This document shows positions 57,369 to 62,572 of a stretch of DNA of 62,572 nt, piece after piece. The notes under the pieces were generated by a model. The model had not been told where the DNA came from. It saw only the letters and a list, made by a program, of their open reading frames with translations, and did no database searches. Position 1 is the first letter of the stretch; the number at the start of each line of letters is the position of its first letter. This DNA comes from Acidobacteriota bacterium. Its GTDB lineage: Bacteria; Acidobacteriota; Vicinamibacteria; Vicinamibacterales; JAKQTR01. The translations under genes and the position numbers were made by a program. Location of the stretch: NCBI GenBank assembly GCA_026393755.1, contig JAPKZO010000003.1:1-62572 (forward strand). Direction: 5' to 3'.

Positions 57369-60209
57369 CTACGCGGTCGCCAGCGGCGAGATCTTCTCAA
57401 TCATGTAGACTTCGATCACGTCGCCGACCTTGATGTCGTTGAAGCGCTCGAAGCCGATTCCGCATTCGGCTCCCGACTTCACCTCGCTGACATCGTCCTT
57501 GAACCGGCGCAGCGATCCGATCTTGCCGTCGTGGACGACGACGTGATCGCGCACGAGGCGTGACTGCAAGTCTCCCGTGCGCGCCACGCGGCCCTCGACG
57601 ACCATGCATCCCGCGATGGTGCCGAACTTGGGCACCTTGAACGTCTCGCGCACTTCGGCCGACCCGATGCGAACCTCGCGGAACGTCGGCTCGAGCAGAC
57701 CCAGCATCGCTTTCTTGATCTCGTCGGTCACGTGATAAATGACCGAGTGCTGCCGGATCTCGACGGTTTCGCGCTCGGCCAGGTCGGCCGCGTTGCGGTC
57801 CGGCCTCACGTTGAAGCCGATGATGATGGCGTTGGAGGCCGCCGCCAGCAGCACGTCCGACTCGTTGATGGCGCCAGCTCCCGAGTGGATGATGCGGACC
57901 TTCACCTTGTCGTCGGACAGCTTGCCGAGCGTGTCTGACAGCACTTCGGCAGAGCCCTGCACGTCGGCCTTGACGACGATGGGGAGCTCCTTGATCGCCC
58001 CGTCGACGATCTGCTGCTTGAGCGATTCGAGCGTCAAACGCGACGACTTGGCGCCGAGGGCGCGATCCTTGGCCTGCGTCTGCCTGAAGGTCACCACCTG
58101 GCGCGCCTTGGCCTGATCCGCGATGACCTGGAACGTGTCGCCCGGCTGGGGCAATGCCGTCAGGCCCAGCACTTCAACAGGCGAGGACGGCCCGACCAGC
58201 TTGATCGGATGCCCGCGGTCGTCGAACAGCGCGCGGACCTTGCCGATGACCGAACCCGCAATCACCGTGTCACCCACCCGCAGGGTGCCGTTCTGGATGA
58301 GGACCGTGGCCACCGGGCCGCGGCCCTTGTCCAGCTTGGCTTCGAGCACCGCACCCTGGCCCGGGGCCTTGGGGTTGGCCTTCAGCTCCCCGATGTCGGT
58401 CACCAGCAGGATCATTTCCAGCAGCAGATCGATGTTCTGCCGCTTCTTGGCGGAGACCGGCACGGTGACGGTCTTTCCTCCCCACTGTTCGGGCATCAGG
58501 CCCAGGTCGGCCAGATCCTTCATCACCCGATCCGGGTTGGCGTCGGGCTTGTCGATCTTGTTGATGGCCACGATGATCGGCACGCCCGCCGCACGCGCGT
58601 GGTCGATGGCCTCGCGCGTCTGCGGCATGACGCCGTCGTCGGCGGCCACAACGAGGATGACGATATCGGTGACGCGGGCGCCGCGCGCTCGCATCAGGGT
58701 GAAGGCCTCGTGGCCCGGCGTGTCGAGGAACACCACCGGCCGGTTATTGACCACGACCTGGTAGGCGCCGATGTGCTGGGTGATACCGCCGGCCTCGCCC
58801 TCGGCGACTTTCGTCTCGCGGATTGCGTCCAGCAGCGTCGTCTTGCCATGGTCGACGTGGCCCATGACCGTCACCACCGGGGCGCGCGTCACCTGATCTT
58901 CGGGCTGGCTGTCCTCGGTGCTGACCTCGAGGACTTCTTCCTCGAAGCTGCGCATCTTGACCTCGGCGCCGGATTCGCGCGCCAGCGACGTCGCCATCTC
59001 GGTGTCGAGCGTCGTGTTGATGGTGACCATGATGCGCCGGTCGAGCAGTTTCTTGAGGATCTCCTTGGCGCGGATATCGAGCTTGTCGCTGAGATCCTTG
59101 ACCGTCATCCCTTCGGCCAGGGTGATCGTGCGGGTTACTGGCGGCGGCGTCGACTCGATCGCTGCGGTCGGAGTCGACGTGTCCCGGCTGGGGCCGCGCC
59201 GGGCCATGCGTCCCCCTGGGCGTCCCATCGGTCGCCGCGGAGCCGGCCGGCCAACCACTGGCCTCGGAGGCGCCGTCGGCGCCCCAGGCCGCGCGCCGCC
59301 ACTGGGCATGCCCGGCTGCTGCGTGCGCAGCGGCTGCGACGGCAGGGGCCGTGGGCCTCCCGTCACCGGCTGTCGGGTGCTGTACGGCGGTCTCACGGCC
59401 GGTCTGTCGGTTGTCGCCGCCCCTGGACGGGCGGCCATCGGGGCCTTCGGCGCGGCCGAAGGCGCAGGCGATTTCGCCGCTGGCGTCGCCGCGGTGCCTG
59501 TGGCCGCCGCAGGGCGTACTGGCAGCCGGGGCGGAAGCGGACGAGCGACGGGCTGAAGCGGAACGTGCTTGCGCGGTTCCTCGACCCTCAGTCGCAACGT
59601 GGACGGCACAAAACGGCCGACGGCCGGAGCCGGCGGCGGAACGGCTGGAGCAACGGGTTCCTCGACCACTGCGAGAACCGGCGCGTCTTCCTCGACAGGC
59701 TCGGCAGCGACCGGCGCAGGTTCCGGCTCGGCGGCCTGCACAGATTCGGACGCCGGTGCCTCATGGACCGGAACTGGCTCATGGACTGGCAAAGGTTCCA
59801 GGACGATCGGTTCGGGCTCGACCTCTGGCGCCGCAACAGGCTCGTACTCGACCACCGCCTCCGCTTCCGGCTCGACCGGCGCTTCGACCGGGTGCGGAAC
59901 CTTGACGGTCTTCACCAGACGCGGCGGCGGCATCGACGGCTTCGGCGGTGGCGGCGGCGGCTCGACCTTCTTTGCCGTCCCGCCCTTCTTCACCTTGGAC
60001 GCGGCGCCCTCGGCGAAGATGTCACCCTTTGGCAGCGTGATCCCCCGCGTGCGCGCCAGGCGCGACACGAACTGGTGGGCAACGATCTCTTCGACCGTGC
60101 TCGACGCACTCTTGAGCTCGATGCCGTGATCGCGCTTGAGCAGTGCGACGATTTCCTGGCTCGTGGTGCCGAGCAACTCCGCGATCTTGTAGATCCGAAC
60201 AGTTGACAA
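57369..60209 (-). CDS. infB: Translation initiation factor IF-2
   Basis: The 946-residue GTPase starts at TTG with GAGG about six bases upstream. It has an N-terminal IF2-N domain ([20 protein letters not shown]), a Pro/Ala/Glu-rich disordered stretch of about 250 residues, a second IF2-N, and the G domain with GHVDHGKT near 450, DTPGHEAF and [10 protein letters not shown]. The C-terminal domains that bind fMet-tRNA follow. It carries the initiator tRNA to the 30S subunit. It is separated from nusA by repeat copy C, where many bacteria have ylxR. Confidence 0.96.
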
Positions 60210-60262
60210 CGCTGACCTCGACCTAGTCTGTTAGCCGACTTGCCGGAGGTGCGAACCCGCAC

Positions 60263-60382
60263 CTCAGCGCTTCGACTCGCAAGTATGGAGACGTCTTCTC
60301 GCCCGACTATCCGCTCAAAACGCTCGCTCAGCACTGAGTCCTGAAGGAATAAGTTCGTCGCCGAACTTATGACTCGAAGGAC

Positions 60383-60387
<5 letters not shown>
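60263..60387 (-). repeat. Structured intergenic repeat, copy C (nusA-infB)
   Basis: On the minus strand, helix 1 is CTGAGTCCT (60387-60379) with AGGACTCAG (60342-60334). The inner hairpin is ATAAGTTCG (60370-60362) with CGAACTTAT (60357-60349) and a GCGA loop, a GNRA tetraloop. Helix 2 is CTCAGTGCT (60338-60330) with AGCGCTGAG (60271-60263), one G-U wobble. The nusA stop codon TGA lies inside helix 1. A further perfect hairpin GAGGTGCG/CGCACCTC overlaps its 3' end (60246-60265). It is co-oriented with transcription. Confidence 0.85.
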
Positions 60388-61786
<1,399 letters not shown>

Positions 61787-61788
61787 GC

Positions 61789-62304
61789 TCAGAACTCCAC
61801 TTCCAACCGCGCGCGCCCAATGATCCCCAACGGGATCCGCTGGACCCGGCCTTTAACATCCGCAACCAGCACCTCGTCGCCCTCCAGACCCTGGAGGCGG
61901 CCAGAGAGGTGCTTCTGGCCGTTCACCGCTTCGAGGAGCACCATCTTCGCCAGACATCCCGCGAAGCGCCTGTAGTCGTCCGCGCGTCGCAGCGGCCGAT
62001 CCAGTCCGGCTGACGACACTTCAAGCGTGTACCGATGCCCGATGGTGTCCTCGACGTCGAGCAGCGCGCCGACCTCGTGGCTCACCTCCCGGCAATCGTC
62101 GATGGTCACACCACCGGCAAGGGCCGACCCCGCCCGTCCCGCGACCACCGCCGCGCCAGGCTTGTCCAGGAACAACCGCAGCACCCAGCCCTGCGTCTCA
62201 CGCCGGAACTGGATGTCAAACACCTCCAGCCCGCGCGAGCGTGCAACACGCTCGGCGATGGCCCGGATATTCTCGAGGCGACTGGTCGCGGCTGTGGTGT
62301 CCAC
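61789..62304 (-). CDS. rimP: Ribosome maturation factor RimP
   Basis: The 171-residue protein contains GLEVFDIQFRRETQGWVLRL, then FLDKPG, DDCREVSHEVGALLDVED and YTLEVSSAGLDRPLRRADDYRR, the diagnostic RimP motif. It helps 30S maturation. I chose the GTG at 62304, which follows CAGGAAATCAC. A GTG at 62328 would lie inside the T-run of the hairpin upstream. It is the first gene of the nusA-infB cluster. Confidence 0.92.
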   Translation of the reverse strand: MDTTAATSRLENIRAIAERVARSRGLEVFDIQFRRETQGWVLRLFLDKPGAAVVAGRAGSALAGGVTIDDCREVSHEVGALLDVEDTIGHRYTLEVSSAGLDRPLRRADDYRRFAGCLAKMVLLEAVNGQKHLSGRLQGLEGDEVLVADVKGRVQRIPLGIIGRARLEVEF

Positions 62305-62328
62305 GTGATTTCCTGGCCCCTGAAACAC

Positions 62329-62352
62329 AAAAAGTGGGTACCGAACCCACTT
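62329..62352 (-). terminator. Intrinsic terminator or attenuator before rimP
   Basis: On the minus strand AAGTGGGT-TCGGT-ACCCACTT forms an eight-pair stem followed by TTTTT (62333-62329). Only 24 bases separate it from the rimP start, too few for a promoter, so transcription of rimP-nusA-infB must pass through it or begin further upstream. It may also end the upstream gene. Confidence 0.75.
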
Positions 62353-62385
62353 CAGCAGTCTCAGACGGGACTTCCAAAGCAGCTA

Positions 62386-62415
62386 AGTATATCACTCGCT
62401 GCCCTGGACCGGCAA
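62386..62415 (-). promoter_or_regulatory. Candidate promoter for rimP-nusA-infB
   Basis: On the minus strand TTGCCG (62415-62410), an 18-base spacer, then TATACT (62391-62386). The start would be near 62379, giving a leader of about 75 bases that includes the hairpin at 62332-62352. It overlaps the end of a probable upstream gene, so it is only a candidate. Confidence 0.4.
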
Positions 62416-62571
62416 CGGCCGGACCACCAGGTCAGCCGTTTCGGAACCGAGGTGTTGCCGGGGCCGCAGCGGGCGATCGGCACAGACGACTGGCGCGTGC
62501 GGCGGCGGCGACGTCGCGAGCAGAGACACGTCGACCTGCGGGGCGGAGGGGATCGGGACGAAGCGGGTCGA
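62392..62571 (-). CDS. Probable C-terminal end of an unidentified protein (partial)
   Basis: The minus strand is open for 59 codons from the window edge to a TGA at 62394-62392. The third codon positions are nearly all G or C, as in neighbouring genes. The peptide starts STRFVPIPSAPQVDVSLLAT and ends DLVVRPLPVQGSE. I do not recognise it. The terminator hairpin 40 bases later fits as its end. Confidence 0.45.
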   Translation of the reverse strand, partial: STRFVPIPSAPQVDVSLLATSPPPHAPVVCADRPLRPRQHLGSETADLVVRPLPVQGSE

Positions 62572-62572
62572 G

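Follow-up and report, generated by a model that had tools for sequence, protein, structure and literature searches.

The rimP gene of the acidobacterial contig studied here is the first in a rimP-nusA-infB series read from the minus strand, an essential set that encodes factors of transcription and translation, and the assignments RimP, NusA and IF-2 are confirmed by Pfam. The window, meaning the whole stretch of DNA that was analysed (62,572 nucleotides), stops where the contig does, inside a repeat and 157 nt ahead of the -35 hexamer of this operon. Between the repeat and rimP lie a promoter-like site, a short leader and a hairpin with a run of U. The features are as follows.

62410-62415, minus strand: -35-like hexamer TTGCCG, from the promoter scan; a TTGCC-type -35 occurs in many, not all, relatives
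62386-62394, minus strand: extended -10, TGATATACT, from the promoter scan and the alignment
62353-62379, minus strand: short 5' leader before the hairpin, with the start estimated near 62379
62352-62332, minus strand: terminator hairpin AAGUGGGU-UCGGU-ACCCACUU, eight pairs, read from the sequence and from the scan
62352-62345, 62344-62340 and 62339-62332, minus strand: hairpin arm AAGUGGGU, loop UCGGU and arm ACCCACUU, by direct reading
62333-62329, minus strand: U5 tract, overlapping the stem by two U
62317-62328, minus strand: conserved block GUGUUUCAGGGG past the U tract, a second U run followed by a G run, from the comparison of distinct loci
62311-62314, minus strand: probable Shine-Dalgarno AGGA of rimP, inferred from the sequence
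61789-62304, minus strand: rimP, GTG start at 62304, with Pfam RimP_N and RimP C-terminal SH3 domains
60383-61786, minus strand: nusA, with Pfam NusA_N, S1 and KH domains
57369-60209, minus strand: infB (translation initiation factor IF-2), with Pfam IF-2 domains

A first-pass annotation of this DNA had described a hairpin of eight pairs with five T residues, 24 bases before rimP, and direct reading showed its coordinates and counts to be right; the 24 bases between the U run and the GTG are 62328-62305. NusA, which it had placed second in the operon, is indeed encoded after rimP. In the terminator scan the same hairpin was scored as nine pairs, one of them G-U. By the scan alone the hairpin is at chance level and has no statistical weight, with 1 terminator-like site observed in 2 kb compared to 1.1 +/- 1.2 in shuffles. 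Additionally, folding of the 58-nt leader gave a z of -2.0, and 12 of 200 shuffles were equally good. The promoter scan returned a single promoter-like site, TTGCCG-18-TATACT with TG before the second hexamer (62415-62386), and the extended -10 is separated from the hairpin by 33 bases. The same annotation had seen a candidate promoter ahead of the hairpin and no room for one after it. Both statements agree with the present data: the 24 bases contain no TA, and all 55 hairpin-bearing loci have the conserved -10 ahead of the hairpin.

The repeat at the contig edge (62432-62572) lies 17 nt ahead of the rimP -35. Contig C31 ends in an identical copy, and C40 has a stretch of 80 bases with 91% identity to it. 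Its 16-base terminal motif GGTTCCGAAACGGCTG is shared by another repeat, also of 141 bases, which was seen on C6, on C10 (at both ends) and on C35. These contig-edge repeats look like the ends of a mobile-element family, and the reading of 62432-62572 as coding sequence of an upstream protein was dropped, the region being a repeat.

A search of relatives gave a RimP match in 55 of 60 genomes, the own genome included, and none in the remaining 5. The 55 genomes provided 56 rimP loci, one genome contributing two contigs of the same sequence. The hairpin is present in 55 of the 56 rimP loci of the order, as selected by pickers that, for the order and for the phylum, give GGG stems a bonus. Therefore, the doubt arising from its chance-level score is removed. 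The core GUGGGC..GCCCAC-UUUUU is near-invariant among the loci of the order, and that of the window is GUGGGU..ACCCAC, with one pair altered on both sides. Both alignments consist of 50 sequences, the locus without the hairpin (L052) and five duplicate cores being left out of the 56. Over these 50 distinct sequences pairing is kept in 350 of 350 cells, and a compensatory change is seen in 4 of 7 pairs, compared to 0.2 in shuffles and 0 to 2 in slid versions. Conservation in relatives, which the first-pass annotation had named as a way of checking the hairpin, thus comes out in its favour, with covariation as well. Among the loci of the order, rimP is estimated to start between 2 and 186 nt after the hairpin.

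The only rimP locus of the order without a recognisable hairpin, L052 of genome G038, keeps an TTGTTATACT box just before rimP; the box sits behind a gene end that reads, by eye, like a tRNA synthetase. The upstream neighbour was assigned by Pfam in 10 loci, as a radical SAM/TRAM protein in 6, DUF1646 in 1 and a class II tRNA synthetase in 1, with no hit in 2. The gene with radical SAM and TRAM domains is the same-strand neighbour of rimP in L005, L008, L009, L011, L020 and L031 (6 of the 10 tested), and we take it to be MiaB/RimO-like.

As seen in the hairpin-bearing loci, a TAnnnT box stands 28-38 nt ahead of the core stem in 55 of 55 (a count made without a shuffled control), mostly at 31, 32 or 35 nt, and TG precedes it in 51 of the 55. 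Ahead of the hairpin, the 50 aligned leaders share no invariant or near-invariant block other than TGnTAnnnT, the T, A and T of the box being invariant, and the leader from -10 to hairpin displays almost no sequence conservation across the order. With a transcription start assumed at about 7 nt past the -10, the terminated RNA is likely to be about 50 nt long, leaving 20-30 nt ahead of the hairpin. Therefore, such a leader likely has no room for an aptamer. A structured 5' leader was rejected, as structure beyond that of shuffles was not found in the 49 distinct leaders (mean z -0.34; below zero in 24). Antiterminator pairing within the leader was likewise rejected, since the 5' arm of the hairpin pairs with the leader bases ahead of it at 0.43, compared to 0.48 in shuffles, and exceeds the shuffles in 25 of 55 loci. 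It can be seen from these two comparisons that the leader shows no sign of an antiterminator; one that depends on a protein may exist. The finished hairpin has a mean pairing probability of 0.99.

Of 54 distinct loci, 46 have an intact UUUUU directly behind the core stem and 8 an interrupted one. The interrupted tracts, including those of L033, L037, L039, L050 and L056, read UCUUU, UCUUC or UAUUU, with the hairpin unchanged. Termination may be weak in these 8 loci because of the interrupted U5. A second U run, UUU at +8 to +10, is found in 51 of the 54 distinct loci and a G run, GGG near +12 to +17, in 42 of them, and nothing is conserved further on. The two runs together cover 8-16 nt past the stem, or 62317-62325 in the window. 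The G run also occurs in 5 of the 8 loci in which the rimP start is estimated to lie at least 60 nt beyond, indicating that it is not merely a ribosome site. Conservation at 13-15 nt past the stem seems to exceed what a bare terminator needs, and the G run may be a downstream part of a pause or termination signal.

The distribution of the element was followed with a covariance model, R2, searched in 30 genomes including the own genome. Matches were obtained in 28 of the 30, the best match lying at rimP in each, and the two unmatched genomes are those of the 30 in which RimP was not matched either. In the own genome the single match (E<=0.1) is that at the rimP leader. The 11 weaker rows consist of 4 that represent the same hairpin on the other strand and 7 elsewhere, and the two of the latter that were read (G022:C16 and G006:C98) both resemble ordinary terminators. 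A regulon with the same hairpin at other genes was rejected, all 28 best matches in the 30 genomes being at rimP.

In the wider phylum, the element model matches 86 of 197 genomes at E<=0.001. The rimP leaders of 61 phylum loci were also read directly (85 rimP-bearing genomes, minus 7 of the window's order and 17 others). A terminator-like hairpin was present in 54 of these, 47 being GGG..CCC, a count that leans upward with a picker favouring GGG stems; the other 7 of the 61 loci, all outside the order, keep rimP with no recognisable hairpin. Among 80 named nusA loci, which overlap with the genomes of the relatives and are therefore not independent, 10 of the 12 acidobacterial ones match the model, and L071, one of the two unmatched, begins inside nusA. 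Only two Clostridia loci of the other 68 match below E 0.02. The last hairpin before rimP in E. coli K-12 is GGGC..GCCC with a U tract, at 13.8 bits.

A hairpin of this type was named rimP-leader by Naville and Gautheret in 2010 (PMC2965389), and rimP ranked first among the attenuation-regulated genes of their survey. According to the accessible text of that paper, its general form is a GGGc..gCCC stem with a U stretch and no visible antiterminator, NusA is the best candidate regulator, with RimP also mentioned as possible, and the terminator lies 4-130 nt from the gene. The present hairpin immediately precedes the rimP of a rimP-nusA-infB operon, contains GGGU..ACCC in the window and GGGC..GCCC in most relatives, is followed by five U and lies 24 nt from the gene, with 5'-arm pairing not above shuffles. 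The likeness thus extends to the GGG..CCC terminator, the U stretch and the position shortly before the operon. Compared to the motif as given there, the window has U-A beside the loop in place of c-g, and the order has a stem extended to GUGGGC, a fixed spacing of 28-38 nt to the extended -10, and a block past the U tract that is also conserved.

The Rfam family RF01770, the gammaproteobacterial leader, occupies the same site before rimP, and the last hairpin of E. coli shares the GGGC..GCCC core; RF01770 differs in its 102 positions, and the gammaproteobacterial leader is described with a second terminator upstream in the accessible part of PMC2965389. The RF01770 gathering threshold was not reached at positions 60000-62572 of the window, with no match at E<=5, and 0 of 20 genomes match at E<=1. 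The hairpin is filed outside RF01770 because this model does not match, and its membership in the published rimP-leader is well supported. A known Rfam RNA in the window was also rejected, the single weak hit being asX4 (11.1 bits, threshold 100), inside nusA on the opposite strand.

Several leaders in other phyla are comparable, as far as the available text of each source describes them. In the rimP operon of S. agalactiae, termination 31 nt after the start was measured by RNA-seq (PMC4448216), whereas the acidobacterial leader, from a different phylum, is known from sequence. The rimP leader of B. subtilis is given as 180 nt (PMC2965389), compared to about 50 nt here. A 2025 review states that NusA of B. 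subtilis is autoregulated by NusA-stimulated leader termination (PMC12288461); the operon, the leader terminator and the proposed logic are alike, and the action of NusA was tested there whereas here it is presumed. In the literature search on attenuation and terminators at acidobacterial rimP, only the 2010 survey was found (PMC2965389). The element and the NusA-feedback model are therefore already in print, and the switch is very widespread.

The most convincing explanation, which can be held with reasonable confidence, is an intrinsic terminator in the rimP-nusA-infB leader whose readthrough is set by elongation factors, above all NusA. A polymerase leaving the promoter would transcribe about 50 nt and then meet the hairpin and U tract. 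Some complexes would release their RNA, and the remainder would proceed into rimP-nusA-infB. In E. coli and B. subtilis the hairpin-paused state that leads to termination is favoured by NusA, and when this factor is plentiful, more polymerases would stop and less NusA would be made. The release and readthrough step is proposed from anatomy and conservation, and the NusA step from other species. Because neither an aptamer nor an antiterminator is apparent, readthrough is most likely set by elongation factors. The first-pass annotation had suggested an attenuator with NusA feedback. Its attenuator half is supported by comparison, namely the promoter in 55 of 55 loci, the covariation and the single match in the own genome; its NusA half is an analogy with other bacteria which, together with the lack of a detectable antiterminator, makes NusA probably the effector. 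Sequence and comparison establish the promoter, the hairpin and the U tract, together with their constant order, spacing and conservation; termination in the cell, its partial character and the involvement of NusA are all presumed.

An attenuator that responds to another signal, such as RimP, NusG, Rho, or polymerase speed together with nucleotide supply, is unlikely, although several observations fit it. The near-invariant GUGGGC..GCCCAC suggests a recognition that ordinary terminators do not need, RimP is mentioned as a possible regulator in the survey (PMC2965389), and E. coli fusions with the rimP 5' UTR and ORF respond to a Rho mutation, with lower expression, in the accessible part of PMC7815308. 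However, there are reports of NusA feedback on the operon in E. coli and B. subtilis (PMC2965389, PMC4448216, PMC12288461), and no comparable report for RimP, NusG or Rho was found in the available text. A hairpin acting on RNA stability, processing or translation without termination is improbable. Loci with an interrupted U tract still retain the stem sequence and the block 8-15 nt beyond it, as such a role would allow; yet 46 of the 54 distinct loci have an uninterrupted tract, which a non-terminating role would not need, and a distance to rimP of 2 to 186 nt (estimated) opposes a fixed masking of the ribosome site.

A plain terminator or insulator against transcription from the upstream gene has a slimmer chance still. 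Of 10 loci, in which only the ORFs on the strand of rimP were run through Pfam, 8 have a gene with a recognised domain that ends a short way upstream, but the hairpin follows the conserved promoter instead of preceding it, and must act on the transcripts of that promoter too. Moreover, the upstream gene varies while promoter and hairpin stay, which disfavours a mere terminator of the neighbour. The least probable reading by far is a chance inverted repeat. One terminator-like site per 2 kb is indeed the shuffle level, but conservation, compensatory change and the single match in the own genome contradict it, and it was rejected on the first two.

Within the NusA-governed attenuator, a narrower proposal is tentative and rather doubtful: the stem GUGGGC..GCCCAC, the second U run and the G run 8-15 nt past the stem may be read specifically by NusA or NusA-bound polymerase. 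The leader would then be a minimal, aptamer-free feedback switch of about 50 nt, kept across the phylum with little else conserved. If this is true, the block past the U tract is part of the signal and not of the terminated RNA. Knowledge of the operon itself is unchanged by these findings. They extend the published attenuator to an acidobacterial order missed by the Rfam model and provide a comparative picture of fixed promoter-to-hairpin spacing, no antiterminator and conserved bases behind the U tract, through which a possible sequence preference of NusA at one terminator becomes testable.
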